Made by a program: the position numbers and the translations under genes
Notes under the pieces: model-generated
The model's database searches: none
The model's input: the letters and a program-made list of their open reading frames with translations, nothing else
What the model was told of the DNA's origin: nothing
From: a virus
IMG/VR virus record: IMGVR_UViG_3300032299_000934
Span: 1-42,709 of that record
Length of the DNA stretch: 42,709 nt
Direction: 5' to 3' (one strand)
Shown: in pieces, positions 847 through 41,710 of the stretch
How the letters are laid out: each line of letters opens with the position of its first letter
Position numbering within the stretch: the stretch's first letter is position 1

Positions 847-860
847 CTGCAATGGTGCAG
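847..860 (-). promoter_or_regulatory. Dyad A copy upstream of the 64-aa tail gene
   Basis: On the minus strand this reads TCTGCA-CCAT-TGCAG, a perfect match to the recurring dyad, in a 41-bp gap between two tail genes. The start codon of the downstream gene is 26 bp further on. Candidate phage promoter or RNA hairpin. Confidence 0.55.
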
Positions 861-861
861 A

Positions 862-1239
862 TCATGCCGCCAGCCAAGGCAGCGGCCTGGCTGTTGTTGC
901 GGGGCTCCGCATTGCGTGCAGAGCACTAGCTTGCTGCGCCTTCAGCTGCGCGACGGTTGGCTCGGAGCTGTCGTCGTCAGACAGCGCGCCAGCTCGGGCG
1001 TCGATGGCCGCCTCAAGCCACTCGATCACCTTCGTCTCGGACAAGGTGTCAAACGGCACGAACGCTGACTGCTCGGCGGGCGCCAGCGGCACGTCGCCAT
1101 AGAAGCTGATCGTGCCATGGCCGTCTGTTGCGTGCAGCCGCCAGTGGACCTTGTGGACCACATCGGTGAGCGCCCCGATCGCGGGCGCCACGTCCAACTG
1201 CTCCACCTCCCAGGTGTAGTTGATCACGGGGTCAGGCAT
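862..1239 (-). CDS. Conserved phage tail-region protein (125 aa)
   Basis: The protein starts with an INYTWEVEQLDVAP block, then DVVHKVHWRLHATDGHG and a FVPFDTLSETKVIEWLEAAI block. I recognise this conserved pattern from small proteins next to tail-fibre genes of cyanophages and other podoviruses. No enzymatic motif is seen. The C-terminal 25 residues are Ala/Pro-rich and poorly ordered. It begins 3 bp after the 288-aa fibre-like gene, in the same operon. Function unknown; a virion or tail-assembly role is inferred from position. Confidence 0.7.
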   Translation of the reverse strand: MPDPVINYTWEVEQLDVAPAIGALTDVVHKVHWRLHATDGHGTISFYGDVPLAPAEQSAFVPFDTLSETKVIEWLEAAIDARAGALSDDDSSEPTVAQLKAQQASALHAMRSPATTARPLPWLAA

Positions 1240-1242
1240 GGC

Positions 1243-2109
1243 TCAAACTCCAATGAGGCCGTGGGATGAGAGGTCTTTGATCAGCGCCGCCACCCGCTCA
1301 GCGAGCTGCGGCAGCGTCACAGTCGCCGGGTCGAACGCAGTGCGTGTCGCAGCGCCACTCGGCTGCTGCCACCCGGTCTTGCGTGCGCCCACTACGGTGT
1401 TGGCGCCCACCATCAGCGTGTCGCTGGCGCCGGTGAGTTGGATGTTGCCGGTGACCGACAGCCGCTCAGTGCCGGTCGTGTTGCCGATCAGCACCTTCCC
1501 GGCCGATGTGATCCGCATCGCTAGCACCGCAAAGTCGGTGCCAGGGTTCGGTGTGAATACCCCGGGCGGAGTCACCGTGAAGTCCAGCATCGCCGGCATC
1601 TGGTTCAGGCCGGGCGTTCCATCCACGACCCCGCGAATGACGGCGCCCACTACGAACTTCTGGCCGTCAGCGCCTTGGAAGCTGATTGAGCCCAGTCGGT
1701 CCTGGTTCTGCACCAGGGTTCGAGAGCCAGATGCTGCGCCACGGGTCTTGCACAGCGCTAAGCCTGGTTGCGCAGTCGAGTCAACGTGCCGAATCAGGGC
1801 CATTGATGACCCGCCGAACTCGCCCCCGGCCCCTTCGATTTGCAGTTTTGGCGACGCGACGCCGCTGACGTCGGCAGAGGGCAGTCCTTCGCCGATGTAG
1901 AGCGCGGCGAGCTCCGTCTGCCCCAGCAGGGAGACCCATTCGTAGGCACTCTTGCCTGGTGGCACTGCAGAGGCGTAGAGCCTGCCGTTACTGCCGAGCA
2001 CGACAGCGCCCGGCACTGCAGTGGCGTCGTAGGGCACTGGCACTGGCGTCACGGCCAGCTTCTGCGTGCGCAGCAAGCTGCCAGATCCTGTCCTGAGGTT
2101 GTCCATCAT
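1243..2109 (-). CDS. Tail fibre-like protein
   Basis: The 288-residue protein has an N-terminal region (1-60) with VVLGSNGRLYAS, a central beta-rich region, and around residues 195-215 a MRITSAGKVLIGNTTG motif. That motif is typical of trimeric phage fibre shafts ('RI.s.GkvgIG'). The C-terminus contains LPQLAERVAALIKDL, a likely short coiled coil for trimerisation. The ATG at 2109 overlaps the stop of the upstream gene. It is probably a secondary fibre or adhesin attached to the main fibre; receptor unknown. Confidence 0.7.
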   Translation of the reverse strand: MMDNLRTGSGSLLRTQKLAVTPVPVPYDATAVPGAVVLGSNGRLYASAVPPGKSAYEWVSLLGQTELAALYIGEGLPSADVSGVASPKLQIEGAGGEFGGSSMALIRHVDSTAQPGLALCKTRGAASGSRTLVQNQDRLGSISFQGADGQKFVVGAVIRGVVDGTPGLNQMPAMLDFTVTPPGVFTPNPGTDFAVLAMRITSAGKVLIGNTTGTERLSVTGNIQLTGASDTLMVGANTVVGARKTGWQQPSGAATRTAFDPATVTLPQLAERVAALIKDLSSHGLIGV

Positions 2110-2606
2110 GCTTCCGTGTCAGGGGCGTGGTTGAGCGCTTCCAGTTCCACCGCGGTGCCGATCACCGTGATGGCATCAGCGGCCTCAGCCCGAACCTGCA
2201 GCCGTCCACCGGGCCCCGTATTGCTGAGGTTGGTCTTAAGCAGCCGCAGCCCTTGGATAGACACGAAGATCGACTCCTTGGCTGGCACCGCGATCTGCGG
2301 TGACACCGCGACAGCTTGACCGCCGCTGCCCTCCAGCAGCATCTGCAACTCCACCCACCGCCGAGTTGCGCTGTGGTTGATTGCCTGCAGTGGCGCCTCA
2401 ATGAACACCTCGCCTGCGCGGAGCTCCCGGCCGGCATCGGCGGGGTCAAGCACCCCCCCGTCGTCACCTGAGGCGGGGATGGTGAAGTCCGGCGCCTCGA
2501 CAATCGTTGTCCACGTTGTCGGCACGAAACCGTTGTTGGTAGTCGATGGGACGTAGAGCAGCAGCGGCTTGCCGCTCGATGGCTGGTCGGTCTTGATGCG
2601 GGGCAT
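2106..2606 (-). CDS. Tail-region structural protein (166 aa)
   Basis: This 166-residue protein has an N-terminal segment with repeated aromatic/Thr residues (NNGFVPTTWTTIVEAPDF) and a central beta-rich domain with RRWVELQMLL and VPAKESIFVSIQGLRLLK. Its features and position, directly between the main tail fibre and a fibre-like protein, match uncharacterised structural proteins of cyanopodoviruses. It begins 2 bp after the fibre stop codon and overlaps the next gene by 4 bp. No catalytic residues are recognisable. Function inferred as tail or fibre assembly only. Confidence 0.65.
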   Translation of the reverse strand: MPRIKTDQPSSGKPLLLYVPSTTNNGFVPTTWTTIVEAPDFTIPASGDDGGVLDPADAGRELRAGEVFIEAPLQAINHSATRRWVELQMLLEGSGGQAVAVSPQIAVPAKESIFVSIQGLRLLKTNLSNTGPGGRLQVRAEAADAITVIGTAVELEALNHAPDTEA

Positions 2607-2608
2607 GG

Positions 2609-4642
2609 TCAGTAGCTCCTTGAGATAACGGCGCGGGTGACCCGGCCGCGGATTGCTGAGTCGAACGGTGGGCCGCCCAGCTGCCCGCTGCGGGCGTCAA
2701 TCACCAGGCCGCCGACGAACACCGCATTGCCGGCGTCGTCCTGACCCGAGAACCGCACCCGACCGCCATTGCGCTGCACGATGCTGCGCTGGATGCGCCG
2801 TGCGTCACGGGCCGGCGGCACCCGGTAGAACTCGATGCCCGCCATCGGCGCGGTCCACTGGTGGTTGATGGCAGTGATCAGACTGCGCAGCTTCCGGCGC
2901 ACCGGTTCGACAGGCGTTGGCGGTGGGCCAGCCCCTACCTCGTGCCAGTAGTTGTCGAGCGTTGCCCGCAGCCGGCTGACCAACGCATTGAGGAAGGTGA
3001 CCGAGCCAGCGCTCAGTTGGCCTCCGGCAATCAGTTGGGACGTAATCCGATTCCATGCAGCCTTGAACGCAGTGTGGTAGGTGAAGTCGTAGACGCATAC
3101 CCCGTCAAAGCCAAACATGCCCTCGGCAAAGTGAAGCATGGGCCGCTCGTACCCAGTTGATAGCGCAGAACTGACGGCATCAAGGAATAGGCCAGAGTCT
3201 TTGCGTGTCAGCGCTTCGTATCCCGCCGGCCAGCTGCCCGCCCCGTGGTTGGCCACCAAGAACTGCCAAGCATCGTTCACAAGTGCGCTCTTGGCGCCAG
3301 CGATGATTGCCGCCACGCCGTTCTGACTGCTGACCAAAGAAGGCGTTACCTTGAGCGGCGCTATCCGCTGCGTGGAGCCTTCACTCCAGAAGCTGTAGTC
3401 GCCAAACTGTGAGCTGGAGCCACTGACTACCATTTGCCCGCCATCTAGGCACATGAAATGGCGGTGTTGGCCGACGCCAATCGCGTTGACCGGGTTGACA
3501 AAGCCGCGATTCCGGGCGACATAGCCCAAGCCATTGGGGCAACTCGGCGTAAAGCCCCACGTCATAATGTTGGGATAGACGCTGTAGGGCGACAGCACCG
3601 AAGCATCGGCAAGCACGCACCCGCCGCCCTTGGGATAGTTCGGGTTGCCCGCTGCTGCATCTACCGGTAGTGGCGTGGGGATCTGCGCGTCAGCGCTGCT
3701 CACCACGCAGTTCTGCCCGTAAGGCACTCCGCCAGGGAGGATTGTCGCCCCTGGTCGGAAGGTCATCGCAAAGCCCTTCGTCGGGGTGTTGAAGTCATCA
3801 ACGCGCCACCCTGCAAACTTGAGATTGACCAAGTGAGAGCCATTGCCGCAGCGGAACACATTGCGGACTTCATTCCCCGATGTTGGCTGAATAATGGTGC
3901 GCCGCTGGAAGTTGGCGCCCAAAATGGTGGTGTTATCTGGGACGTCCAGTTCGCCGCCTGTGCTTAGCCCATCGAGCAGAACAACGGTCCACGGTTGCGG
4001 AAGCTGGAAGGCATTGATTTGGTCAAGCGCGTGCTCGATGTTTTGGAACGCATTGTGTGGATTGCGGCCATCACGCTGGTTGCTGCCATCGTTGCGCACA
4101 TAAAACACTTTGGGCCGCTGATCGCTAGGCGAGGCTGCGACTGTGATGTTGGCGGTGCCATCAAACGGCACCCCATTGATGTTGCGTGGCGTGGTGAGTC
4201 GCGCTGCGCGGTTGGCGCTGCCGGCGTTCTGCGCGAAGCCTGCATTGCTGGCGTAATCCGCAGCGACTGCCGCTTCTGACAGCGCAGCAAAGCGGCTGCG
4301 GTCGATCAACTCTTGCAGCAGGTAAAGCGCCTGCTGGTCCGCCAGGTTGTGATCAGATGCTTGCAGTGTCGAGCCATCGACCCACTGCACCAGCTGATTG
4401 TTTTGCGGCGTCTGCCGCAGGATGGTCAACTCGGCGCCCGAAGCGGGTGCTGTCGTCAGCTGGATGCGAGTGCCGTTGATCCAGGTGTAGTCGGCCGGCT
4501 CCAGCAGCTCAGTTGTCAGCGAGTCATCGAAGTAGTCCCAGCCAAAGCCAACCCTGATGTGGGCTCGGCTAAGGTAGGGGAACGGCACATTAAACCCTCT
4601 GGTGCTCCCGTCGCCGGGGTAGGAGACGTAGGACTGGGGCAC
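2609..4642 (-). CDS. Tail fibre protein, T7 gp17-type N-terminus
   Basis: A 677-residue adhesin. Residues 1-140 form the T7 tail-fibre N-terminal domain that anchors the fibre to the tail (SYVSYPGDGSTRGFNVPFPY..., ILRQTPQ, QASDHNLADQQALYLLQEL). Residues about 180-300 look like a right-handed beta-helix start (FYVRNDGSNQRDGRNP, NAFQNIEHALDQI), as in pectate-lyase-fold fibres. The C-terminal 70 residues form a separate beta-rich module. The start is a GTG at 4642 without a Shine-Dalgarno, 5 bp after a dyad A copy. A strong GGAGAGAGG plus ATG lies 25 bp upstream in another frame. The tip region should determine host range. Confidence 0.9.
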   Translation of the reverse strand: MPQSYVSYPGDGSTRGFNVPFPYLSRAHIRVGFGWDYFDDSLTTELLEPADYTWINGTRIQLTTAPASGAELTILRQTPQNNQLVQWVDGSTLQASDHNLADQQALYLLQELIDRSRFAALSEAAVAADYASNAGFAQNAGSANRAARLTTPRNINGVPFDGTANITVAASPSDQRPKVFYVRNDGSNQRDGRNPHNAFQNIEHALDQINAFQLPQPWTVVLLDGLSTGGELDVPDNTTILGANFQRRTIIQPTSGNEVRNVFRCGNGSHLVNLKFAGWRVDDFNTPTKGFAMTFRPGATILPGGVPYGQNCVVSSADAQIPTPLPVDAAAGNPNYPKGGGCVLADASVLSPYSVYPNIMTWGFTPSCPNGLGYVARNRGFVNPVNAIGVGQHRHFMCLDGGQMVVSGSSSQFGDYSFWSEGSTQRIAPLKVTPSLVSSQNGVAAIIAGAKSALVNDAWQFLVANHGAGSWPAGYEALTRKDSGLFLDAVSSALSTGYERPMLHFAEGMFGFDGVCVYDFTYHTAFKAAWNRITSQLIAGGQLSAGSVTFLNALVSRLRATLDNYWHEVGAGPPPTPVEPVRRKLRSLITAINHQWTAPMAGIEFYRVPPARDARRIQRSIVQRNGGRVRFSGQDDAGNAVFVGGLVIDARSGQLGGPPFDSAIRGRVTRAVISRSY

Positions 4643-4647
4643 TTGCT

Positions 4648-4661
4648 CTGCACCGCTGCAG
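4648..4661 (-). promoter_or_regulatory. Dyad A copy upstream of the tail fibre
   Basis: The minus strand reads TCTGCA-GCGG-TGCAG in the 48-bp gap before the fibre gene, exactly 5 bp before the GTG start. Perfect match to the dyad. Thirteen bases of this site recur upstream of the MarR-like gene (33135-33148). Confidence 0.55.
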
Positions 4662-19509: not shown

Positions 19510-19523
19510 CTGCGACCATGCAG
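19510..19523 (-). promoter_or_regulatory. Dyad A variant upstream of tail tube A
   Basis: The minus strand reads TCTGCA-TGGT-CGCAG, one mismatch to the dyad, exactly 5 bp before ATG 19504. The same mismatch (CGCAG) is in the copy at 20701-20714. It lies just after the capsid terminator, so it may restart expression. Confidence 0.45.
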
Positions 19524-19544: not shown

Positions 19545-19572
19545 AAAAAAGCCCCACCCCGAAGGGCAGGGC
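19545..19572 (-). terminator. Intrinsic terminator after the capsid gene
   Basis: On the minus strand a 9-bp stem (GCCCTGCCC pairing with GGGTGGGGC, two G-U pairs) is closed by a TTCG tetraloop and followed by six T. It begins 20 bp after the capsid stop. T7 has its main terminator at the same place, after gene 10. It is the only stem with a T run that I found in the window. Confidence 0.85.
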
Positions 19573-19591
19573 CCGCTCTCCCCTGTCAAGA

Positions 19592-20700: not shown

Positions 20701-20714
20701 CTGCGTGAGTGCAG
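20701..20714 (-). promoter_or_regulatory. Dyad A variant upstream of the capsid gene
   Basis: The minus strand reads TCTGCA-CTCA-CGCAG (one mismatch), preceded by ACG as in the copy before the small terminase. It leaves a leader of about 75 bp to the capsid GTG, reminiscent of the T7 gene 10 promoter-leader arrangement. Confidence 0.5.
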
Positions 20715-24117: not shown

Positions 24118-24293
24118 CAACCCAGGCCCCCTTGCTGTTCGGCGTGCCAGCGCTTGATGCAGTCCACGACTGACTGCTCGCCGATCCAGTGGTCGATTTC
24201 CCGATGGCTCATTGAGCGATCAGGCTTTCGGCCAAAGGTGTCGTCCAGCCTGGCAATCAGTTCGTCGGAGACGAGTGGAAACACTGCATCCAT
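24117..24293 (-). CDS. Small protein (58 aa) between exonuclease and gp7.3-like genes
   Basis: The 58-residue reading frame starts MDAVFPLVSDELIARLDD and contains an HREIDHWIGE helix; it ends GGLG. It has the compact helical look of small proteins found before structural genes in cyanophages, but I do not recognise a family. It is coupled to the next gene by a TGATG overlap. Its ATG lies inside a perfect dyad A copy (24284-24297). No Shine-Dalgarno is seen. Confidence 0.55.
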   Translation of the reverse strand: MDAVFPLVSDELIARLDDTFGRKPDRSMSHREIDHWIGEQSVVDCIKRWHAEQQGGLG

Positions 24294-24297
24294 GCAG
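24284..24297 (-). promoter_or_regulatory. Dyad A copy at the start of the virion block
   Basis: The minus strand reads TCTGCA-TGGA-TGCAG, preceded by ATG. It is a perfect copy and is the reverse complement of the 14-bp site at 29041-29054. It marks the switch from DNA-metabolism genes to virion genes. Confidence 0.55.
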
Positions 24298-29040: not shown

Positions 29041-29054
29041 CTGCATGGATGCAG
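29041..29054 (-). promoter_or_regulatory. Dyad A copy upstream of SSB
   Basis: CTGCAT-GG-ATGCAG is a perfect palindrome with two central bases; the minus strand is preceded by TC. It lies 5 bp before the SSB ATG. The same 14-bp sequence occurs on the other strand at 24284-24297. Confidence 0.6.
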
Positions 29055-29075: not shown

Positions 29076-29105
29076 CCTAGGAGGCACCTAGGCAATACCC
29101 CTAGG
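29076..29105. promoter_or_regulatory. CCTAGG cluster with palindrome B between RNAP and SSB
   Basis: CCTAGG occurs three times in 30 bp (29076, 29087, 29100). Positions 29078-29090 match TAGG-N5-CCTA with AGGCA as spacer, the same palindrome as at 33110-33122 and 36930-36953. The RNA polymerase TAG stop is part of the last copy. Confidence 0.5.
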
Positions 29106-31500
29106 AGAACAGATAGGGGTTCCCGCCGATCTCGCCCACCTTCAGCGTCCCCACCATCGGCGGCGCCGGCAGCCTCGCCCCAGCCGTGGCCTGGATTTCG
29201 GCCGTGATCTCAGCCAGCCAGTCCGGCCGGTAGAGCTCCCCGGTGCGCCACAGCAACGTGCTGTGCAGCCACTCGGCATCGCAGGGCGGCACCGCGAAGC
29301 AGTCGTGGTTAGGCAGCACCGTGACCCCTTTGTCTGCACCATCGCAGACCATTGCCCACACCAAGGCAGCGTCAAAGCTGTGGATGAAGTTGGCGGTGAT
29401 CGACCGGCCGGTCTCCACGGCGCTGAGCTTCCCCGGTGGTGGCGCATCGAGCAGGGTCTGCCAGCGGCGGGTGCCATGCAGCAGCGACTTGATGCCGCTG
29501 CTGGCGGTGAGCTCCTTGCCCAGCTGGATGGGCAGCCCCATCGGTGTCGTCCACCGCAGCGGCTGGTTCTTGGCACTGCAGCAGCGCACCACCGCCCGCA
29601 GCCAGGCCTGAAATGCCACTGCGCCAGCCAGCCGGGCGCCAACGGCCAGGCCAAACTTCCGCGCCAGGTAGCGGGCGGGTATCAGCCGCTCGAGCTCCAG
29701 CACCCCCAGCGACACGGTCCCCTCAGCGTCATCCAGCAGGGCCACCAGCTGCTCGGTCACCCCCAGCAGCTTCGCTCCGTAGACCGTGCTCATCACCGGC
29801 ACCTTGGCCATGGCCCGGCTGATGCCGCGCTCCAGCCACCAGCCCGCCAGCCGCTGCTCCTTGGCATCCCCAGCCTCCAGATCAGAGCGCAGCAGCAGCA
29901 TCACCTCCTGGGCCAGCTCGGTGTAGAGGTCGTGGCGGGTCGTGCCGACCAGGTTGCAGGCCCGGGCCAGGCCTCGATCCCGCAGCAGGGCGCCGATGAT
30001 CCCAGGGCCTGAGCTGGTCTGATCCAACCGCACCGGCTGATGGATGGACTGGTTGGGGTCCTCGATCCACCGCTGCAGCGCCCGGCAACATGCCAGGAAC
30101 TGCCACGGCTCCTTGGCATCACGCCACAGATGCACCCGCTCCAGGGGTTCCTCGGCCGCAGCCAACATGCGCTCCATCTGATCCCTGCCGAACTGCAGCC
30201 GGTCGGCCCAGCTGCCCTTGATCCCCCAGTGGATCGCCGCTGCCTTGAGGATCCAGTCGGCGGCCCGGTCATCGCACGGCTTGGCGTTGGCGATCAGCAC
30301 CTGAGCCTTTTCGTGGTCGGGGCCCTGGTGGGTGGTGAGCCGGTTCGCTGTGTAGACCCGGCCGCGGATGTCCATGCACCAGCTGAACCAGAGCGGCTCG
30401 CCGGCCAGCTGCTCGGCCTGGCGGATGGATCCCTCGATGCGGCTGCGGGCTTCCCGGCCCTCGATCCGGTCGCGGTGGAACGCCTGCTCCTGCTGATGCC
30501 AGCGGGCCATGGCCTCCTTGCCCACCAGCTCAACCGGCTTGGGCGGGGCCTCGGCCGGATCGCGCAGCAGCGGGAACAGGCCGCGCAGGTTCGCATCCCA
30601 GGCGATCCGCTGGTTCCCCACCATCCACGGATCCAGCATCAGCCCCTGGTCCTGGAGGGTGTTCACCACCTTCAGCGCCGGCTGCAGGGCCTGGGTGGTG
30701 AGGTAGTCGATCGGATGCCCCTTGCGGCTGCGCACCAGCAGCTCGGTGTTGCTCAGGTGCCCGCCGCCCGTCATCCCCTCCCACGGCCTGGGCGGGGTGA
30801 GCATGGGCAGCTTGCGAGCCTTGGCGGGTGTCGGCGGGTGGGCGGCGATGATCTCGGCCACCACGGGCGCCGGCTCAAGTTGCAGGCCGCGGCGCCCTGG
30901 CTTGGTCGTCGTTCGCAGTAGCTCGGTTTCGGTGGTGATGATCTCCAGCAGGAAGGCACCCACCTGGAAGCGATCGGCGGCACACCAGGGCTCCAGCTGG
31001 ATGCGCAGCTGCTCCAGCCGCGCCTTCGATGTCAGCCCCTTGCCGTGGCGGCGCCGGGCGATGCGGAGCAGGTCTTGGCCGCGGTCCTCGATCGGGAGCG
31101 CCCTGATCTCTGCCTCGATCGCTGCGCCGATGGCAGATGCCATGGCCCGGTGGCTGGCGGGCTTGCTGATCCGATCGAGCACCACCCCCAGGGCGACCGC
31201 AGCGATGGAGCGGGGCCCCTTCTCTCCCAGCTGGAACAGCAGCCACATGCCGGCGTGATACGGGCCGGCCACCTCGTCGCGGTTCAGCGCCTTGCCCAGC
31301 TTGTGCTCCAGCGCCAGCGCCACACGCTCGCCGTGGGCGTGGAACAGGGCCCGCCCGTATTCGGTGGCGCTCTCCTTCTCCTGCTGCTTGAGCTTGGCCC
31401 GGGCGATCCGTGAGCGGTTGGCGGCGGCCTCCTGGGCTGCCATTTCCAGATGCAGCTGACGCTCCTCCGAGGGGGTGGACGAATTGCAGGATGCAGACAA
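29101..31500 (-). CDS. DNA-directed RNA polymerase, T7-like single subunit
   Basis: A protein of about 799 residues with the catalytic motifs of the T7 family. Motif A is PVRLDQTSSGPGIIGALLRD (Asp near 490). Motif B is SRAMAKVPVMSTVYGAKLLG (Lys and Tyr-Gly near 560). Motif C is NFIHSFDAALVWAM (Asp near 707). MDIRGRVYTAN is also conserved. T7 RNAP is 883 aa; the N-terminal promoter-binding region is shorter here. The start is uncertain: TTG 31500 or ATG 31443. A TTG start would place dyad A (N3 variant) at codons 2-6. It should transcribe middle and late genes. Confidence 0.93.
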   Translation of the reverse strand: MSASCNSSTPSEERQLHLEMAAQEAAANRSRIARAKLKQQEKESATEYGRALFHAHGERVALALEHKLGKALNRDEVAGPYHAGMWLLFQLGEKGPRSIAAVALGVVLDRISKPASHRAMASAIGAAIEAEIRALPIEDRGQDLLRIARRRHGKGLTSKARLEQLRIQLEPWCAADRFQVGAFLLEIITTETELLRTTTKPGRRGLQLEPAPVVAEIIAAHPPTPAKARKLPMLTPPRPWEGMTGGGHLSNTELLVRSRKGHPIDYLTTQALQPALKVVNTLQDQGLMLDPWMVGNQRIAWDANLRGLFPLLRDPAEAPPKPVELVGKEAMARWHQQEQAFHRDRIEGREARSRIEGSIRQAEQLAGEPLWFSWCMDIRGRVYTANRLTTHQGPDHEKAQVLIANAKPCDDRAADWILKAAAIHWGIKGSWADRLQFGRDQMERMLAAAEEPLERVHLWRDAKEPWQFLACCRALQRWIEDPNQSIHQPVRLDQTSSGPGIIGALLRDRGLARACNLVGTTRHDLYTELAQEVMLLLRSDLEAGDAKEQRLAGWWLERGISRAMAKVPVMSTVYGAKLLGVTEQLVALLDDAEGTVSLGVLELERLIPARYLARKFGLAVGARLAGAVAFQAWLRAVVRCCSAKNQPLRWTTPMGLPIQLGKELTASSGIKSLLHGTRRWQTLLDAPPPGKLSAVETGRSITANFIHSFDAALVWAMVCDGADKGVTVLPNHDCFAVPPCDAEWLHSTLLWRTGELYRPDWLAEITAEIQATAGARLPAPPMVGTLKVGEIGGNPYLFS
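31484..31496 (-). promoter_or_regulatory. Dyad A (3-base spacer) at the RNA polymerase gene start; also a GGATGCA arm-type site
   Basis: The minus strand reads TCTGCA-TCC-TGCAA. It begins right after the TTG at 31500, or 40 bp before ATG 31443. On the plus strand it contains GGATGCA, the 7-mer repeated five times around the attP core. Confidence 0.45.
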
Positions 31501-31579: not shown

Positions 31580-31659
31580 GGCCGGACATCTGCAGGGATG
31601 CAGAACTGGAAAACGGATTATGAGTCCGCTGCTTTCACCAGATAGCTAGACCCCCGGCC
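31580..31659 (-). other. tRNA-like sequence (CAU anticodon arm) holding the attP core
   Basis: On the minus strand, 80 bases fold partly like a tRNA. They show a 7-bp acceptor-like stem (31653-31659 with 31580-31586, one G-U), a GCT/AGC D-stem, and an anticodon arm with loop CTCATAA. A hairpin CTGCA-TCCC-TGCAG stands in the T-arm position. The T-loop consensus is absent and four extra bases lie before the D-stem, so I do not call a functional tRNA. Bases 31612-31630 match the anticodon arm of tRNA-Met/Ile(CAU), the likely integration core. Confidence 0.6.
31590..31603 (-). promoter_or_regulatory. Dyad A copy in the attP region
   Basis: The minus strand reads TCTGCA-TCCC-TGCAG, a perfect copy. 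It overlaps one GGATGCA arm-type site and lies 90 bp upstream of the RNA polymerase TTG. Confidence 0.5.
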
Positions 31660-31768: not shown

Positions 31769-32755
31769 TCAGCCCTCAAGCGCTGCCACGCAGGACGCCA
31801 GGGCATCGGTGTGCAGGTGGAGGTAGCGCTGCACGCTCTGGAGGGATGTCCAGCCGCCGAACGCCATCAGCTGGTGCAGCGGGATCCCCTTGGTCGCCAG
31901 CTTGCTTGCGCAGGTGTGGCGGGTGCAGTGGATCGTGAGGGCCGGGTCGGTGATGCCCAATCCCTCCTTGGCGCACTCAAACAACCACTTGAACTGCCGG
32001 TAGCTGTAGGGGTAGACCCGATGGCCCGGCACGGCCGGCAGGTGGGGCAGCAGGGCATCAAGGGCCCGGCGGGTGAGCGGCACGCTGCGGGCGCGGTTGG
32101 CCTTGGTCTCCCAGAAGGTGACGCGGGCCCGATCCACATCCACATCAGCCCCACGCAGCCGCTCGGCTTCGCCCCACCTGCAGCAGGTCTCGAGAAGGAA
32201 CACGAAAAGGTCGGCCGCGGCGGGTTGGCCTGCGGCATGGAACCGATCGCAGAACGCTGCGATCTCAGCATCCGAGAAGATCCGGTCCTTGGTGTTGCGG
32301 TTGGTCAGCTGCCGGGGCAGGGGCGGGATGGCAGCCAGGTGCCCATGCAGCACGGCATCGCTGAACATGGCCCGCAGGCAGGACACCTTGGCGTTGACGG
32401 TGCCGGGGCGGTTGCCGCCGTGTAGCAGCAACTGCCGCCACTCCTCCACGGCCGGGGCGGTGATGCCGCCCAGCTGGGTGAGCGGGCCGAAGTGATCCAC
32501 GGCGGCCTGGCTGTAGATGGCAGCGGTCCGCTCGAAGGCCTTGCCGGCCCAGCGGATGCGCAGGGAGAGGGCCCGGGCGTCGGTGATGGTGATGCCCTGA
32601 GGCTCGCCACTGCTGCGGGCTACCAGCAGTTCCAGCAGCTGGCGCTTGGCCTCGATGGCCTCGGTCTTGGTCTTGCGCTTGGCAGTGCGGCGGGTGCCGT
32701 TAATGCAGACATCGGCAATCCAGCCGTCCGCCGTGCGGCGAACTGATCCGGTCAT
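31769..32755 (-). CDS. int: Tyrosine recombinase (integrase)
   Basis: A 328-residue integrase. The N-terminal strand region (VRRTADGWIADVCINGTRRTAKRKTKTEA) is an arm-binding-type domain. Residues 75-150 form the core-binding domain (SAM-like). The catalytic set is visible: Arg193 in CCRWGEAERL, Lys218, His276 and Arg279 in HCTRHT, Trp302 in GGWTSLQS and the nucleophile Tyr311 in RYLHLHT. It appears intact. Its ATG follows an (ACC)5 leader. It lies just upstream of RNA polymerase, as in integrase-bearing T7-like cyanophages, with the attP candidate between the two. Confidence 0.95.
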   Translation of the reverse strand: MTGSVRRTADGWIADVCINGTRRTAKRKTKTEAIEAKRQLLELLVARSSGEPQGITITDARALSLRIRWAGKAFERTAAIYSQAAVDHFGPLTQLGGITAPAVEEWRQLLLHGGNRPGTVNAKVSCLRAMFSDAVLHGHLAAIPPLPRQLTNRNTKDRIFSDAEIAAFCDRFHAAGQPAAADLFVFLLETCCRWGEAERLRGADVDVDRARVTFWETKANRARSVPLTRRALDALLPHLPAVPGHRVYPYSYRQFKWLFECAKEGLGITDPALTIHCTRHTCASKLATKGIPLHQLMAFGGWTSLQSVQRYLHLHTDALASCVAALEG

Positions 32756-32786: not shown

Positions 32787-33104
32787 TCAGATCCGCTGCA
32801 GCTGCTGGAGCAGCAGCCGCCCCTTAGGGCTCAAGCGGACCAGGAAGCGGCGCCCCTCCTCGGGGTCGCGTTCCACGGTGAGCAGCCGATAGCCGCGGTC
32901 GCCGTGGCGGTTGCGATCGCTGAGGGCGGCGACCGATCGGGACACGCTGGAGTTGGTCAGGTTCATGGCCTGCTCCAGGTGCTCGAACGTGGCCGGCTCG
33001 TTCAGGGCAACCTCAAGGAACAGCCGTGCATGGTGCAGCGGAAAACGGGTGGGGTCCTGGGTGGCAAAAGTGCCTAAAGCCAGGGCCAGTGCAGCGAGAT
33101 CCAT
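32787..33104 (-). CDS. MarR-like winged-helix regulator
   Basis: About 105 residues from ATG 33104. FPLHHARLFLEVALNEPATFEHLEQAMNLTNSSVSRSVAALSDR is a winged helix-turn-helix with the recognition helix around NSSVSRSVAAL. The wing follows (YRLLTVERDPEEGRRFLVRLSPKGRLLLQQL). It is one of two such regulators just before integrase, so control of lysogeny genes or of itself is likely. The palindrome TAGGTGACACCTA (33110-33122) sits 5 bp before the ATG, a typical autoregulatory operator position. A GTG at 33119 would place the palindrome inside the gene. Confidence 0.75.
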   Translation of the reverse strand: MDLAALALALGTFATQDPTRFPLHHARLFLEVALNEPATFEHLEQAMNLTNSSVSRSVAALSDRNRHGDRGYRLLTVERDPEEGRRFLVRLSPKGRLLLQQLQRI

Positions 33105-33134: not shown

Positions 33135-33148
33135 TGGCACCGCTGCAG
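33135..33148 (-). promoter_or_regulatory. Degenerate dyad A upstream of the MarR-like gene
   Basis: The minus strand reads TCTGCA-GCGG-TGCCA. Two bases of the dyad differ, but 13 bases are identical to the copy before the tail fibre (4648-4661). Confidence 0.3.
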
Positions 33149-35333: not shown

Positions 35334-35512
35334 TGGTCGGTGGTGGTGGTGGTGGTGGTGGTGTGGTCGTTGAACAGCGGGCCCAGGGCGCCGCCATCGA
35401 GGGCCAGCCAGCCCTGTTGCGGGCCGGCCAGTTGGAGCGGTTGCGGGCTGTAGTCGCGGGGTTGTGCGCCGGGGACCGCTAGGGCCCCCTGCCGGTATCG
35501 GTGCTGTTTCAT
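35330..35512 (-). CDS. Small protein with poly-threonine tail (60 aa)
   Basis: It starts MKQHRYRQGALAVPGAQPRD, is Gln/Pro/Leu-rich, and ends LFNDH, eight Thr, DQ. The Thr run is encoded by the (ACC)8 repeat that also precedes the ArdC start. Start and stop overlap neighbours (TGATG and ATGA), which argues for real translation. No family recognised. The repeat could vary in length between phages. Confidence 0.5.
   Translation of the reverse strand: MKQHRYRQGALAVPGAQPRDYSPQPLQLAGPQQGWLALDGGALGPLFNDHTTTTTTTTDQ
35339..35362 (-). repeat. (ACC)8 microsatellite
   Basis: Eight perfect triplets, read as ACC on the minus strand, followed by GACCA and the ArdC ATGACC. It encodes a Thr run in the upstream gene. 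The longest of five (ACC)n tracts. Confidence 0.85.
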
Positions 35513-35700
35513 CAGGCCGCGGCGAGCAGTCGGCGCACCGTGGTGCGGCTGCAGCCCAGCCGGTCGGCGATCGCCTGCTGCGTCATCCCGTAGGAACGCC
35601 AACGGCGGGCCCGTTGCTGCCGGCTCTCGGTGGCCCAGAGCAGAACGATCAGGGGCAGCAGAAGCAGGGCGAGCACCAGGGCGGCAAGTGTCGTGGTCAT
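35512..35700 (-). CDS. Membrane-anchored HTH miniprotein (62 aa)
   Basis: Residues 4-22 are a strong transmembrane helix (LAALVLALLLLPLIVLLW). They are followed by a basic patch (RQQRARRWRSYG) and a resolvase/sigma-type helix-turn-helix (MTQQAIADRLGCSRTTVRRLL) to the C-terminus. The layout suggests a single-pass protein with a cytoplasmic DNA-binding tail. It has an (ACC)6 leader and no Shine-Dalgarno, and is coupled to the next gene by TGATG. Regulatory role inferred; no family recognised. Confidence 0.6.
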   Translation of the reverse strand: MTTTLAALVLALLLLPLIVLLWATESRQQRARRWRSYGMTQQAIADRLGCSRTTVRRLLAAA

Positions 35701-36175: not shown

Positions 36176-36189
36176 CTGCACTGCTGCAG
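36176..36189 (-). promoter_or_regulatory. Dyad A copy at the start of the early leftward operon
   Basis: The minus strand reads TCTGCA-GCAG-TGCAG, perfect, preceded by ATG. It lies 27 bp upstream of ATG 36148 and next to an (ACC)4 tract (36164-36175). Confidence 0.5.
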
Positions 36190-36609: not shown

Positions 36610-36623
36610 CTGCAGGAGTGCAG
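36610..36623 (+). promoter_or_regulatory. Dyad A copy oriented rightward
   Basis: The plus strand reads TCTGCA-GGAG-TGCAG, a perfect copy whose leading T is on the plus strand, toward the rightward genes. A half-site (ATCTGCAGGGA) is 40 bp before it. Confidence 0.45.
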
Positions 36624-37004: not shown

Positions 37005-37400
37005 ATGAGACCCAGAGAGGATGGTTCCGAGAACTTCGTCATGCTGTTCACCGACGAGCTGGCTTCCTGTGCCATCGGTGCCATGGCCGACAAGCGCCTG
37101 CTGCCCCGCGACCTGGCTGTCCTGACTGGCCTGATCGCCAACGTCAACTGGCGCAGCGGTCGGGTCAACGTGACCCAGCGGGCCCTGGCCCAGCAGATGA
37201 ACATCCTTGAGTCGAACTGCTGCACCTCCATCAAGCGCCTGCGACAGGAGAAGCTGATCGCTCGCGCTGTGGACAAGACCTCCGGCCACACCTACTTCCT
37301 GATCAACCCCCGACTGGCATCAGTGGGCAGCACGCAACGCCGCGGCCACCTGTTCCAGCAGTTCGATGAGGCCATAGCGATCCCCAAGGAGCCGGAGTAA
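37005..37400 (+). CDS. RepL-like winged-helix protein (131 aa)
   Basis: FVMLFTDELASCAIGAMADKRLLPRDLAVLTGLIANVNWRSG leads into a winged helix (RVNVTQRALAQQMNILESNCCTSIKRLRQEKLIARAV) and a wing ending in GHTYFLINPRLASVG. The 'YFLNP.l..VG' ending is typical of RepL/RepA-type plasmid initiators and related phage regulators. It is the first rightward gene, behind two palindrome B sites, so it may regulate transcription or start replication. The start may be ATG 37005 or ATG 37041. Confidence 0.65.
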   Translation: MRPREDGSENFVMLFTDELASCAIGAMADKRLLPRDLAVLTGLIANVNWRSGRVNVTQRALAQQMNILESNCCTSIKRLRQEKLIARAVDKTSGHTYFLINPRLASVGSTQRRGHLFQQFDEAIAIPKEPE

Positions 37401-37412: not shown

Positions 37413-37426
37413 CTGCACTGGTGCAG
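37413..37426 (+). promoter_or_regulatory. Dyad A copy between the first two rightward genes
   Basis: CTGCA-CTGG-TGCAG, perfect core but without the leading T on either strand, so it is the least typical copy. It ends 2 bp before the GTG at 37429. Confidence 0.4.
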
Positions 37427-37879: not shown

Positions 37880-39643
37880 ATGAGCGTCTACCCCATCCCC
37901 CCTGAACTGGGCATCGGCCGGTTCGCCTACTTCTTCTGCTACATCCTCCGCGAGCTGGGCCTGGCGGATGAACCCACCAAGCAGCAGCTGCGCATCTGCG
38001 ACTGGGATGAGGTGGGCCCCAACCGCACGGTGACGGTGGGCTTCCGTGGCATCGCCAAATCCACCATCAGCGGTGCCCGGGCATTGCACCGCCTGCGGAT
38101 CGACCCGGAAGGGGAGAAGATCCTGATTCCTGGCGCGACCGAAACGAAGGCTGAGGAGATCACCACCTTCATGGCCCGGTGCATCCGGGAGATTGACCTG
38201 CTGCAGTGCCTCCAGCCCAAGGAGAACCAGCGGCAGTCCGTCCTGGCGTTCGACGTGGGCCCGGCGATCATCGGCGGCGACGGTGCGCCATCGGTGCGGG
38301 CGTGCGGGATCCTCAGCCCCTCGCTGACCGGCAAGCGGGCCACGATGATCATCCCGGACGACATCGAGACCCTCACCAACTCGATCACCCCGCTAAAGCA
38401 GGAGCGGCTGTGGGCGGCCACCACTGAGTTCGAGTCGATCCTGTTGCCGGATGCCGGCCAGCCGCTGCGCCGGCAGATCAGCTTTCGCGGCACGCCGCAC
38501 CTGGAAACCTCCATGTACTGGCGACTGGTGCGCGAGCGCGGGTACAAGATGCGGATGTGGCCGGCCCGCTACCCCAAGCCGGACACCTTCGATGTCTACG
38601 ACGGCTGCCTCGATCCGCTCATGGTGGAGGAGATCGAGGGCAACCCGCAGCTGGTGGGCGGCCCAACCGACCCCGAGCGGTTTGATGACGAGGAGCTGAT
38701 CCAGCGGGAGACCGGCAGCACCAAGGCCAGCTGGCAGCTGCAGTACATGCTCAACTGCCGGCTGAGCACCCTCGACAAGTTCCCCATCCGCCTGGGCGAC
38801 CTGATCGTGATGCCGCTGGATGGCAAGGCGCTGCCGGAGGTGATCAGCTGGGCATCCGGCGCAGAGCAGCGGATCAACGAGCTGCCTTGCGTGGGGCTGG
38901 GGGCTGATCGCTACTACCACCGGCCGATGATGGTGCAGGGCTGGCTGCCCAGGACGGAGAAGTGGCGCAGCGTGCTGGCGATCGACCCCTCTGGCCGCGG
39001 CAGTGACGAGCTGGCCTGGGCGGTGGTGGCCGAGCTCAGCGGCAACCTGTTCGTGCTCGAGAGCGGCGGCACCACCCGGGGGTATGAGGACGATGTGCTG
39101 GAGCTGCTGGCGAACGTGGCCAAGCGCTGGCAGGTCAATGCCGTCATCCCTGAGCCCAACTTCGGCGATGGCATGTTCAGCAAGATCCTGCAGCCGGTGA
39201 TGCAGCGCATCTACCCCTGCTCGATCGAGGAGGCCCCACGGTCAGCTGGGCAGAAGGAGCGGCGGATCATCGACGTGCTCGCCCCCCTGGTGCAGCAGCA
39301 CCGGCTGGTGGTGAACAGCGAGTTGATCCAGAAGGACTGGGAAGGCGCCGAGCGTGACCCGGACAACGGCCACCCTCGCTCGCTCATGTACCAGATGAGC
39401 CGGATCACCACCGACCGGGGCAGCCTGCTGTTCTATGACCGGATCGACGCCCTGGCGATCGCTGCAGCCCACTTCGTGGAGGCCGCGGCCCAGGACCAGC
39501 AGCGGGTGGCCGCACGCCGCCAAAAGGAGCTGGTAGAGGCCTCCCTGGCGGCCTGGTTCGATGAGACCGGCGCCAAGCTCGATGCGCTGGCCCTGGGCAT
39601 CATCCCGAAGGCCAGCGGGGCCGTGGGTGGCGTCAGGCGGTAG
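37880..39643 (+). CDS. Terminase large subunit, T7 gp19-like
   Basis: A 587-residue packaging motor. ATPase: VGFRGIAKSTISGARAL (Walker A near residue 55), MIIPDDIETLTNS (Walker B, about 156) and RGTPHLETSMYW (coupling motif). Nuclease: SVLAIDPSGRGSDELAWAVV (first Asp near 367), PEPNFGDGMFS (about 430) and LLFYDRIDALAIAA (about 515-525). The size equals T7 gp19 (586 aa). It is on the plus strand, opposite to all virion genes. Its stop overlaps the end of the inverted small terminase gene by 11 bp. Confidence 0.95.
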   Translation: MSVYPIPPELGIGRFAYFFCYILRELGLADEPTKQQLRICDWDEVGPNRTVTVGFRGIAKSTISGARALHRLRIDPEGEKILIPGATETKAEEITTFMARCIREIDLLQCLQPKENQRQSVLAFDVGPAIIGGDGAPSVRACGILSPSLTGKRATMIIPDDIETLTNSITPLKQERLWAATTEFESILLPDAGQPLRRQISFRGTPHLETSMYWRLVRERGYKMRMWPARYPKPDTFDVYDGCLDPLMVEEIEGNPQLVGGPTDPERFDDEELIQRETGSTKASWQLQYMLNCRLSTLDKFPIRLGDLIVMPLDGKALPEVISWASGAEQRINELPCVGLGADRYYHRPMMVQGWLPRTEKWRSVLAIDPSGRGSDELAWAVVAELSGNLFVLESGGTTRGYEDDVLELLANVAKRWQVNAVIPEPNFGDGMFSKILQPVMQRIYPCSIEEAPRSAGQKERRIIDVLAPLVQQHRLVVNSELIQKDWEGAERDPDNGHPRSLMYQMSRITTDRGSLLFYDRIDALAIAAAHFVEAAAQDQQRVAARRQKELVEASLAAWFDETGAKLDALALGIIPKASGAVGGVRR

Positions 39644-39905
39644 CCGGCGGCGCCGGGCGGATCGGCACCACCTTGGCCTTCTCCTCCAGCGATCCGAAGG
39701 TGTGGAGCTTGGCCGCCATCCTGGCCATCGCCTCGGTGGCAGTGCCCTCGATCGGTGCGGCGCTGATGTTGTTCTGCTTCATCAGCTGGGCGAACAACCG
39801 CAGGTCGCCATCGCCTGCGTCACCGTTTTCGATCTTCTCGACCAGCTGCTCGACCACGGCCTTGTGCCCGCGGTCGTAGAGCTCTCGCAGGTTGTCGCCG
39901 GCCAT
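39633..39905 (-). CDS. Terminase small subunit (T7 gp18-like), inverted
   Basis: From ATG 39905 (90 residues): MAGDNLRELYDRGHKAVVEQ, then KIENGDAGDGDLRLFAQLMKQ and NNISAAPIEG. The length and the pattern 'helix, E.G......L....lK.n.I' fit small terminase subunits such as T7 gp18 (89 aa), but identity is too low to be certain by eye. It lies next to the large subunit, convergent with it, and is transcribed from a 32-bp divergent gap shared with the endolysin. An alternative start at 39944 would enter the endolysin gene. Confidence 0.65.
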   Translation of the reverse strand: MAGDNLRELYDRGHKAVVEQLVEKIENGDAGDGDLRLFAQLMKQNNISAAPIEGTATEAMARMAAKLHTFGSLEEKAKVVPIRPAPPATA

Positions 39906-39907
39906 GG

Positions 39908-39921
39908 TTGCATGGGTGCAG
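39908..39921 (-). promoter_or_regulatory. Dyad A variant before the small terminase
   Basis: The minus strand reads TCTGCA-CCCA-TGCAA (one mismatch), preceded by ACG as in the copy before the capsid gene, 2 bp before ATG 39905. It fills the gap between two divergent genes. Confidence 0.5.
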
Positions 39922-39937
39922 ACGTCTTGCCTTGATG

Positions 39938-41077: not shown

Positions 41078-41359
41078 ATGGCCACCCGGCCCACCCGGCA
41101 GCATGCCGCCCAGCAGGCGGTCCAGCCAGCGGTAAGGCGAGCGGCCGGCCCACACTGCGGCCGGCTCGATGAAAGCCTTGAGAGCGATCAGCTGCAGCGC
41201 AGCCCCCAGCCAGCGGCCCAGCAGGCCGCCCACCACGATGTCTGCAACGATGCGGGTGTCGTCAGTCACGGCTGTTGCTGTCGCCGGTGAATCGGCCGCG
41301 GCTGTCGCGGCGCCTGGGGCGGTTGTGGCGGCCTGCTGGTTCCCGGCGCTGGAGCTCAT
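40967..41359 (-). CDS. Small membrane protein, holin candidate (130 aa)
   Basis: An Ala/Thr-rich N-terminus is followed by TRIVADIVVGGLLGRWLGAALQLIALKAFIEPAAVW, one or two membrane helices, and a Gly/Pro-rich end. It overlaps the previous gene by 98 bp and the end of the endolysin (opposite strand) by 111 bp, so the true C-terminus is uncertain. The hydrophobic core and position next to the endolysin suggest a holin, but there is no family match. Confidence 0.4.
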   Translation of the reverse strand: MSSSAGNQQAATTAPGAATAAADSPATATAVTDDTRIVADIVVGGLLGRWLGAALQLIALKAFIEPAAVWAGRSPYRWLDRLLGGMLPGGPGGHSALLKHPDVDDPLADQGQHLVPQVGVVDAHASQSGM

Positions 41360-41489
41360 ACGGAAACAGCTCGCTGGCCATGTGCAGCAGCAGCTGAATC
41401 AGTGAGTTGCTTTTGAGCTTGCTCATGCCGATCAGCTCGCTGACGACAAACAGCGCAAAGCCAATGAGCGCTTCCTGTTCAGTGGTCAT
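41262..41489 (-). CDS. Small membrane-associated protein, lysis-cassette candidate (75 aa)
   Basis: It starts MTTEQEALIGFALFVVSELIG, with one hydrophobic helix (6-20), then NSLIQLLLHMASELFPYEL and a strongly basic, Arg-rich C-terminus (RRRDSRGR). The ATG overlaps the previous stop in ATGA. This form (one or two membrane segments plus a charged tail) suits a holin or pinholin but is not specific. Confidence 0.55.
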   Translation of the reverse strand: MTTEQEALIGFALFVVSELIGMSKLKSNSLIQLLLHMASELFPYELQRREPAGRHNRPRRRDSRGRFTGDSNSRD

Positions 41490-41686
41490 GGGTCGTGCTC
41501 CAGTTTGCGGATGCGGTCCTCGTGATCACCAAGCATTTGCTGCATGTTCGCCAGGATGGTGGCAATGCGAGCGTCATGGGCGCCCAAGTTTTTGGCGATC
41601 GCCCACAGCCCCTTGACCCCGCTCCAAAGGCCTCCAACGGCCGCCAGTCCGAGCCCGCCAAGGGCTATGGCTGATCCCGGGTCCAC
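41486..41686 (-). CDS. Membrane protein with coiled-coil tail, lysis-cassette candidate (66-83 aa)
   Basis: The core is SAIALGGLGLAAVGGLWSGVKGLW (membrane helix), then ARIATILANMQQMLGDHEDRIRKLE, a short coiled coil. I prefer GTG 41686, which leaves dyad A (41697-41710) 10 bp upstream as at other genes. A TTG at 41737 would add a signal-peptide-like LALLATLQLCSAA stretch that could be real export sequence. Possibly a spanin-like or holin-partner protein. Confidence 0.5.
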   Translation of the reverse strand: MDPGSAIALGGLGLAAVGGLWSGVKGLWAIAKNLGAHDARIATILANMQQMLGDHEDRIRKLEHDP

Positions 41687-41696
41687 TGGCGCTGCG

Positions 41697-41710
41697 CTGC
41701 ATAGCTGCAG
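41697..41710 (-). promoter_or_regulatory. Dyad A copy before the lysis-cassette candidates
   Basis: The minus strand reads TCTGCA-GCTA-TGCAG, perfect, 10 bp before GTG 41686. It would separate the three small membrane genes from the tail gene upstream. Confidence 0.45.

Follow-up and report, generated by a model that had tools for sequence, protein, structure and literature searches.

The window, by which we mean the whole 42,709-nt stretch of DNA analysed here, is a near-whole contig of a T7-like phage of freshwater picocyanobacteria, a distant relative of Synechococcus phage S-SRP02. Curated genes cover 89.6% of it. A short dyad, CTGCA-N4-TGCAG, recurs along the window; its sites, together with a hairpin next to one of them, are as follows.

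847..860, minus: dyad CTGCACCATTGCAG, downstream of the gene at 862-1239; aligned in relatives G1, G4 and G8
4648..4661, minus: dyad, 5 nt ahead of the GTG of the tail fibre gene (2609-4642)
19510..19523, minus: dyad CTGCATGGTCGCAG, 5 nt ahead of the tail tube A ATG
19549..19574, minus: terminator-like hairpin 3′ of the capsid gene
20701..20714, minus: dyad CTGCACTCACGCAG, ~75 nt ahead of the major capsid gene; perfect in G8
24284..24297, minus: dyad, its last base also opening the inferred start codon of a small gene (24117-24284)
29041..29054, minus: dyad, 5 nt ahead of the ATG of the SSB gene (28385-29035)
31590..31603, minus: dyad between a tRNA-like attachment block and the RNA polymerase (RNAP) gene
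33135..33148, minus: degenerate dyad in the MarR gene leader, beside a decayed ACTCCTAGGAGT-type palindrome
36176..36189, no strand assigned: dyad in an early intergenic region, with T on both sides; aligned in G4, G6, G7 and G8
36610..36623, orientation ambiguous: dyad, early intergenic; kept in G4 and G11, decayed in G6
37413..37426, orientation ambiguous: dyad, 12 bp past the stop of the winged-helix gene 37005-37400 and upstream of terL
39908..39921, minus: dyad CTGCACCCATGCAA, 2 nt ahead of the TerS start and upstream of the divergent endolysin gene
41697..41710, minus: dyad near the right end; kept in G1, G4 and G11

Ten perfect sites had been listed in a preliminary description of this DNA, with less than one expected by chance; we found all ten at the positions listed, versus 0.41 expected in the window. 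With up to one mismatch allowed there were 21 matches versus 5.44 expected, a number reached in 0 of 100 shuffles. An unbiased motif search over all pairs of 5-mers with gaps of 1-12, done on the whole window, returned TCTGC-N5-TGCAG as the top motif, with 16 occurrences versus 0.46 expected (the 16 are counted on both strands and correspond to 11 places). Nine of the ten perfect sites have at most one of their 14 bases inside curated genes, while about one in ten would be expected from the coding fraction; the element is not equally dense within genes, and its proposed placement in gaps and at gene starts was borne out.

Some of the sites proposed earlier had to be reconsidered. The site at 5231 lies wholly within an internal virion protein gene, is not kept in G5 and G8, and was set aside as a coding coincidence. 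A site with a 3-base spacer at 31484 was dropped; it falls inside the RNAP reading frame and its arms are changed in G1, G3, G5, G7 and G8. The degenerate site at 33135 does lie in the leader of the MarR gene, but in the window it is also inside an overlapping small ORF. The sites at 19510, 20701 and 39908 are true orthologous sites, each one base off.

Alignment to relatives made 12 sites traceable (nine perfect and three one base off) and showed the element to be conserved. At these sites the aligned bases were changed in 15 of 621 cases in the arms (2.4%), 60 of 248 in the N4 loop (24.2%) and 286 of 1824 in the flanks (15.7%); the Fisher test of arms versus loop gave 3e-22, with phylogeny not corrected for. 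At seven sites occurring by chance in coding sequence 60 of 461 arm bases and 18 of 188 loop bases were changed. The arms had no changes at 29041 (0/80 bases), 39908 (0/50) and 4648 (0/40, with 4/16 in the loop), and one at 847 (1/30, with 6/12 in the loop). The 19510 site, located between the terminator-like hairpin and tail tube A, is perfect in G2, G4 and G11; the 37413 site is kept in G4, G6, G11 and G13 and changed in G5, G7 and G8.

Many of the same genes carry the dyad in the S-SRP02 clade and, in altered form, in marine relatives. We observed TGCA-N4-TGCA 14 times in S38C3 (1.4 expected; 9 of the 14 outside annotated genes) and the doubly changed CTAC-N6-GTAG six times in S37C6 (0.34 expected; four of the six outside annotated genes). 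The tally of perfect sites covered 41 records, with eight further contigs, seven of them small, left out. A scan of a genome collection added four MAG contigs, with perfect dyads in L131 and L132 and none in L133 and L134; the SSB dyad of L131 is followed by cacaaATG. We conclude that the dyad is real and ancient.

In the S-SRP02 clade no clear dyad was seen within 12 nt of the SSB gene (9/9 genomes), and the right or left arm decays at TerS and tail tube A, where three of the five arm pairs are left in 9/10 and 6/8 cases, respectively, with place and spacing kept. The decay at TerS and tail tube A bears on the reading of the dyad as an RNA hairpin (5-bp stem, tetraloop) ahead of start codons, used for translation or RNA processing. 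Three contexts in the window do fold, at -4.7, -8.1 and -7.1 kcal/mol (z of -1.0, -1.5 and -2.6), and in S-SRP02 the leader of tail tube A can still fold with the help of flank pairs (-11.5, z -2.5). Yet the dyad hairpin is not formed in the S-SRP02 TerS stretch, arm changes at the three imperfect sites of the window are uncompensated, and compensatory changes were not found, the symmetric arm change of S37C6 being common to its sites rather than site-by-site; symmetric A/T beyond the stem is left unexplained as well. Because the S-SRP02 clade loses pairing but not position or spacing, we regard the hairpin as highly improbable.

To characterize the symmetry we used 62 gene-by-lineage sites. 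Seven of them come from the window only; the others belong to five families (SSB, tail tube A, fibre, TerS and the small gene), each lineage contributing to a family its best match, located -1 to 12 nt from the start and agreeing in 6 or more of the 10 arm bases. The set is without S-SRP02-clade SSB, and the capsid family is represented by the window only, as the relatives' sites fall outside the search range. Its weak or mis-registered members are the sites of S31C1 and G40, TerS of S38 and the fibre of S-SRP02; when the bar was raised to 8 or 9 of 10 arm bases, the symmetry stayed. The A/T fraction peaks at -4 (0.92) and +17 (0.90), i.e. ±10.5 bp from the centre, and the mirror correlation of the flanks is 0.83 versus at most 0.60 in shifted frames. 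For the 43 sites with at least 9/10 arm bases the peaks are 0.88 and 0.95 and the mirror correlation 0.73 (0.57 shifted). The 12 sites of the window alone gave 0.71 (at most 0.65 shifted), with permutation P of 1e-4 for a mirrored pair with at least 10/12 on both sides. Arm tolerance is mirrored too (0.98/0.97, 0.90/0.90, 0.81/0.79, 0.89/0.97 and, for the outer pair, 0.95/0.74); these fractions are inflated by selection on the arms, from which the flank fractions are free.

The dyad is thus a palindrome with half-sites ~10 bp apart, and the mirrored A/T at ±10.5 bp together with similar tolerance in both arms points to the footprint of a homodimer. Bacterial operators of the FNR/CRP and MarR types have 5-bp arms about one turn apart and outer A/T contacts; their arm letters differ from those of the dyad. 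We propose that the operator is a 22-bp imperfect palindrome, W-N2-T-CTGCA-N4-TGCAG-N3-W, and the symmetry suggests a paired regulator protein that would switch the whole virus on or off.

The element also has a direction. The preliminary description stated that an extra leading T almost always lies on the strand of the downstream gene; this is so at all seven sites where the downstream gene is clear (fibre, tail tube A, capsid, small gene 24117-24284, SSB, RNAP and TerS), while three sites are ambiguous. When all 12 sites are read on the minus strand, the extra T is present in 10; it is found on both strands at 36176, on the plus strand only at 36610 and on neither at 37413. At 39908 the element points the same way as TerS (39633-39905, minus) and against terL and endolysin. 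Over the 62 sites, position -1 is T in 44, while its mirror partner is A in 23; the dyad ends in a purine in 60, and the base before it is A in 60. The distance of 5 nt to the start codon, given earlier for fibre, SSB and tail tube A, is right in the window, and at SSB it is also found in G9. At the small gene 24117-24284 the register is the same in 19/19 genomes listed, the inferred start codon (GTG in 18, ATG in G13) beginning at the last base of the dyad. An in-frame ATG is also present within this dyad in the window.

Such features are compatible with a promoter of the phage single-subunit RNAP, with a conserved span of -17 to +5, transcription starting (+1) at the G or A that ends the right arm, and mRNAs leaderless or with leaders of ~1-13 nt; we consider this reading possible, with the odds against it. 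The phage does encode such a polymerase, and a directional repeated motif precedes middle and late genes. In span, direction and gene positions the dyad could match the promoters of T7, Syn5 and LUZ100 polymerases; as far as the available text on LUZ100 goes, its mapped promoters have parallel positions (before RNAP, before SSB and upstream of capsid). At tail tube A the dyad lies within the ~45 nt that separate the terminator-like hairpin from the gene. Apart from simple repeats of CACCA type, no other repeated directional motif ranks as high. A full sigma70-type promoter was found 0 times in the window versus 0.7, 0.9 and 1.3 by chance (three overlapping stretches), a weak negative because so few are expected.

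Still, neither the mirror symmetry of flanks and arms nor the free N4 centre is accounted for by a monomeric polymerase. T7-type promoters are read at the region where the dyad has its free N4, and the promoters of T7, Syn5 and LUZ100, unlike the dyad, are not long palindromes with a free centre. We saw no contiguous asymmetric recognition sequence ending in a start G; only the purine end fits. Among phages that share the same arms, the RNAP residues aligned to T7 746, 748, 756 and 758 are not constant (mean identity 0.39 versus 0.51 for the whole protein), although eight proteins from the window, S-SRP02 and G37 lineages retain R-R-W. Some resemblance of the dyad to the Syn5 promoter letters was given no weight.

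A host sigma70 promoter under each dyad was considered and rejected. TAnnnT was observed 3-13 nt upstream of 30/62 sites (shuffled mean 6.9, maximum 15) and upstream of 1.0% of 13,975 other CTGCA, but it was concentrated at a few gene families: tail tube A (12/13), the small gene (9/9, where it overlaps the end of the exonuclease gene), fibre (6/12) and SSB (3/9), with 0/12 for TerS and 0/7 for the other seven window sites, and no full sigma70 site was present. CATAAT before RNAP was also discarded as a -10 box; it is the anticodon loop of a tRNA-Met half.

This tRNA half belongs to a group of features around the RNAP gene, listed here with a second regulator gene.

29101..31500, minus: single-subunit T7-type RNA polymerase (PHROG 414, 3e-124; T7 RNAP, 2e-42)
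31614..31655, minus: block matching the 5′ half of tRNA-Met(CAT), candidate attP core
31769..32755, minus: tyrosine integrase (PHROG 1, 9.5e-45)
32787..33104, minus: MarR-type winged-helix regulator, candidate binder, directly before the integrase
37005..37400, plus: second winged-helix protein, RepL/MarR-like (below curated cut-offs), alternative binder

The block has 3 differences over 42 bases to an ARAGORN tRNA-Met of Cyanobium genome L135. With an integrase and a tRNA-type attachment block present, the phage is predicted to be temperate, and the dyad between this block and RNAP is in a position that suits a lysogeny switch. The gene order, with MarR directly before integrase and RNAP after, is like that of LUZ100 and P-SSP7.

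Among the three readings offered in the preliminary description, the operator is best supported, the phage-polymerase promoter comes second and the hairpin finds poor support. Judging from sequence comparison, we give a probability of about one half to the dyad being a DNA operator bound by a homodimer, most likely of the phage MarR-type regulator (32787-33104). A candidate cognate MarR-type protein is encoded by the same phage; it matches Pfam MarR_2 at 8e-5 (below the curated cut-off) and PHROG 9665 at 5e-19, and has 42.9% identity over 77 residues to P-SSP7 gp0.7. Its single-sequence fold is poor (mean pLDDT 52). The recognition helix is NS[STA]VSR in 11/11 TGCA-type genomes tested and NASASR in S37C6, G38 and S31C1; it is constant with TGCA arms and altered in two marine lineages with TGTAG arms, which may reflect one or two evolutionary events. 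The concordance in S37C6/G38 and S31C1 comes from few independent events, the S31C1 sites being few and irregular. MarR was not found in some dyad-bearing relatives with partial contigs (e.g. G9, G12, G13 and G35). The T at -1 and the purine last base, directional as a polymerase start would be, speak against a MarR operator, as does the fact that, the dyad aside, no promoter is visible for late genes. The lack of a clear SSB dyad in the S-SRP02 clade and the arm decay there at TerS and tail tube A also count against it.

If the dyad is such an operator, each subunit of the dimer would read one arm in the major groove and also touch an A/T-preferring minor groove one turn off centre. With about a dozen copies where transcription units start (RNAP, SSB, the gene before the portal block, capsid, tail tube A, fibre, TerS and others), one regulator could hold the whole genome; we infer repression rather than activation. 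At the RNAP site, bound MarR would keep the marR-int message, or in a prophage a message driven from the host tRNA, from extending into RNAP; at the remaining sites it would block transcription at or close to where it begins.

The dimer may be another one, either the winged-helix protein 37005-37400 or a host regulator, which we consider quite unlikely. The gene of this protein precedes the 37413 dyad in the window and was found in 20 records, in both clades, G36/G37 and S38C3. Its predicted recognition helix, though, differs greatly among phages with the same dyad, it was not detected in S37C6 or S31C1, and its leader holds ACTCCTAGGAGT-type palindromes in S-SRP02 and relatives. Two other candidates were rejected: a 62-aa HTH protein (35512-35700), present in only six window-clade genomes including the window, and KilA-N, found in S-SRP02 only among the genomes compared.

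According to the available text, the homologous P-SSP7 pMarR is dimeric, binds downstream of a transcription start and touches host RNAP alpha (PMC9692554), while the LUZ100 authors propose that MarR represses the RNAP promoter, giving polymerase silencing as a hypothesis and reporting no stable lysogens in the part available (PMC10134795). That published model has its sites around the promoter of RNAP, whereas in the window some dozen copies are spread over many transcription units. In this the dyad is like the stoperators of cluster A mycobacteriophages, a short repressor site repeated genome-wide and stopping transcription at many places (PMC9283540, available text); both come in many copies, largely in one direction. 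Stoperators, however, are asymmetric and bound by a monomer, while the dyad is palindromic. Eight other MarR-bearing T7-like phages (P-SSP7, LUZ100, S-CBP2, HTVC019P, CRP-125, S-TIP28, HTVC119P and HTVC109P) had no intergenic array of such palindromes, a point against the MarR operator; the only one scoring as high, GGCC-N5-GGCC in CRP-125 (9 versus 0.2), has 7/9 copies in two collagen-like genes, and all eight copies of TAGC-N4-GCTA in HTVC109P are within annotated genes.

The two main readings could be combined, though we think it unlikely: the dyad would be both a phage-RNAP transcription start, with +1 at the last purine and near-leaderless late mRNAs, and an operator of a MarR dimer. If so, the 22 bp at each of a dozen genes would be contested by repressor and polymerase, forming a genome-wide lysis/lysogeny switch. 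How temperate T7-like phages silence a fast, self-amplifying polymerase becomes a testable question with one palindrome before many units, a candidate MarR and a tRNA-Met block next to RNAP; the relative S-SRP02 has been isolated, and its host strain is named. In the S-SRP02 paper the main text makes no mention of promoters, palindromes, motifs or inverted repeats, and a literature search by title and abstract opening found no published description of the element, so the dyad is a defined candidate regulatory site for a phage group with no promoters found described.

A second palindrome, ACTCCTAGGAGT, located beside the MarR gene, the winged-helix gene and SSB, could be the true operator of MarR. 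LUZ100 has a palindrome upstream of marR, TGTGGA-N3-TCCACA, which runs over the end of its annotated host promoter P3. At the MarR leader a dyad-like sequence lies beside the second palindrome in the window clade, the S-SRP02 clade, G36/G37 and S38C3, and in S38C3 three TGCA-N4-TGCA are situated around the MarR promoter region.

The genes of the window, a virus record of 42,709 bases, lie in a T7-like order: the minus strand carries RNA polymerase (RNAP), SSB, RusA, exonuclease, portal, scaffold, capsid, tail tubes, internal proteins and fibre, the plus strand terL and endolysin; a tyrosine integrase and a MarR-type gene (32787-33104) are also encoded. The nearest named phage found was Synechococcus phage S-SRP02 (RNAP identity 46.5%). 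No DNA polymerase family was matched among the 30 window proteins scanned against families; the gene at 24304-25044 matches 'DNA polymerase I' of S-SRP02, but its family match is to exonuclease only (PHROG 107).

All ten perfect copies of the dyad CTGCA-N4-TGCAG claimed in the preliminary description are present, against 0.41 expected from 5-mer counts, and nine of the ten lie outside genes, though the curated gene set covers 89.6% of the window. Copies with one mismatch number 21 (5.44 expected; at least 21 in none of 100 shuffles). In an unbiased motif search of the window (5-mer pairs, gaps 1-12) the dyad ranks first, above CACCA-type simple repeats. The copy at 5231 is coding and is not conserved in the related records G5 and G8.

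The dyad is kept in related phages as well, with perfect copies in 34 of 41 related records, many of them fragments (10/11, 13/15 and 11/15 by set); the reversed pattern, used as a control, occurs once each in G017 and G018, two records with no true site, and nowhere in the remaining ones. Twelve conserved sites (847, 4648, 19510, 20701, 24284, 29041, 31590, 36176, 36610, 37413, 39908 and 41697) are each alignable in two to eight of the relatives G1-G8, 36610 and 37413 being the least well kept. Base differences amount to 15/621 in the arms, 60/248 in N4 and 286/1824 in the flanks, whereas at seven coding-chance sites the arms changed more than the centre (60/461 versus 18/188). This opposite behaviour indicates, on the evidence of the alignments, that the arm letters are under selection and the centre letters are not.

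Several dyads stand very close to genes. The features involved are:

39633-39905, antisense, between terL and endolysin: terminase small subunit TerS (PF11123)
19574-19549, just upstream of tail tube A: terminator-like hairpin

In the window and S-SRP02 clades the dyad lies -1 to 12 nt 5' of the start codon of tail tube A, fibre, TerS and the small gene after exonuclease. It is equally close to the SSB start in the window clade, and in the relatives G9, G35 and S38C3; no clear dyad stands as near to SSB in the S-SRP02 clade. The inferred start codon of the small gene opens at the dyad's last base in 19 of the 19 genomes listed (GTG in 18, ATG in G13), and the window's own dyad also contains an in-frame ATG. 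At TerS the dyad follows the orientation of this gene, antisense to its neighbours; the S-SRP02 homologue is likewise opposite to terL.

We rejected the reading of the dyad as an RNA hairpin, since arm pairing decays in the S-SRP02 clade while position and spacing hold: only 3/5 arm pairs remain at TerS, where 9/10 genomes have CTCCA-N4-TGTAA, and at tail tube A, where 6/8 have CAACA-N4-TGCAG. Mismatches in the window's three imperfect dyads (19510, 20701, 39908) are uncompensated. Folding energies of three window hairpins range from -4.7 to -8.1 kcal/mol, and one of the three clearly outdoes its shuffles. In S-SRP02 the leader of tail tube A also folds well, with flanks contributing (-11.5, z -2.5), and in the TerS leader the dyad hairpin does not form.

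The element is symmetric beyond its arms. Over 62 gene-by-lineage sites the A/T fraction is highest at positions -4 (0.92) and +17 (0.90), each exactly 10.5 bp from the centre, against 0.24-0.42 at the four adjacent positions, and the flank mirror correlation is 0.83 (shifted frames at most 0.60). A stricter set (43 sites with at least 9/10 arm bases) gives 0.73 versus 0.57 shifted, with peaks of 0.88 and 0.95; for the window's 12 sites alone the correlation is 0.71 (0.65 or less in shifted frames), and an equally strong mirrored A/T pair arises in 1e-4 of permutations. The +17 signal at TerS is partly the T of its start codon; +17 is A at window sites distant from start codons (20701, 36176, 36610, 37413, 41697), 847 excepted. 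Arm tolerance is also mirrored, except at the outermost pair (0.95 versus 0.74, with G or A on the right). Mirrored flanks and arms are the pattern that a homodimer would leave.

The likelier reading, to which we give roughly an even chance, is that the phage MarR dimer uses the dyad as its operator at many transcription units. That it is the promoter of the phage's own polymerase is less likely, as mirrored symmetry has no obvious explanation with a polymerase that is a monomer; this alternative keeps some weight because mapped phage promoters of LUZ100 precede RNAP, SSB and capsid, as the dyads do, and no other candidate promoter for this polymerase was found. RNAP residues aligned to T7 746, 748, 756 and 758, contact residues in T7 RNAP, vary among same-arm phages and do so more than the whole protein (mean identity 0.39 versus 0.51), though eight aligned proteins, from the window, S-SRP02 and G37 lineages, all keep R-R-W. 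The boldest reading, to which we give a low chance, would make the dyad a combined promoter-operator.

In S38C3 (RNAP 37% identical) the top palindrome is TGCA-N4-TGCA (14 versus 1.4 expected; 9/14 outside annotated genes). In S37C6, a marine relative, it is TCTAC-N6-GTAGA (4 versus 0.03), which keeps the dyad frame with the central base changed in both arms; CTAC-N6-GTAG occurs six times (0.34 expected), four outside annotated genes. No palindrome stands out in the marine relative S31C1, where both the fibre leader and the tail tube A leader have TGTAG at their end, 3 nt 5' of ATG. In the recognition helix of MarR, 11/11 of the TGCA-type genomes tested have NS[STA]VSR, and S37C6, S31C1 and the related record G38 have NASASR; the recognition helix of the second winged-helix protein (37005-37400) is variable.

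Counting against a MarR operator, no dyad-like intergenic array was found in eight other MarR-bearing T7-like phages. The only palindrome scoring as high, GGCC-N5-GGCC of CRP-125, has 7/9 copies in collagen-like genes, and all eight copies of TAGC-N4-GCTA in HTVC109P are within annotated genes. A second palindrome, ACTCCTAGGAGT, might be MarR's real site. In relatives it lies beside the MarR gene, SSB and the winged-helix gene (10056-10081 and 13597-13608 in the record L005), and it is degenerate in the window at about 29076-29105.

A MarR bound at the dyad could activate as well as repress, since pMarR of P-SSP7, a homologue of the window protein, is reported to be an activator that contacts host RNAP alpha and binds downstream of a start site (PMC9692554). 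The LUZ100 authors propose repression by MarR at the RNAP promoter (PMC10134795). Upstream of marR in LUZ100 (L124), a palindrome TGTGGA-N3-TCCACA at about 2271-2285 overlaps the end of P3, an annotated host promoter. Regulator sites repeated across a phage genome are a known kind, mycobacteriophage stoperators being an example (PMC9283540); literature searches of open-licence papers listed none on such a palindromic array in a T7-like cyanophage.

The dyad at 31590 adjoins a further feature:

31614-31655, between integrase and RNAP: 5' half of host tRNA-Met(CAT), candidate attP core

This near-invariant block, just upstream of the dyad, was considered as a promoter and rejected: over 42 bases it differs at three from a tRNA-Met called by ARAGORN in a Cyanobium genome, and its pattern (at most 3 mismatches) was matched in 6 of 42 Cyanobium genomes. 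It is likely the attachment core. Integration there would place host tRNA transcription ahead of the RNAP gene, with the dyad alone between them. An accaccacca-type tract lies immediately 5' of the integrase start at many loci in the window and S-SRP02 clades.
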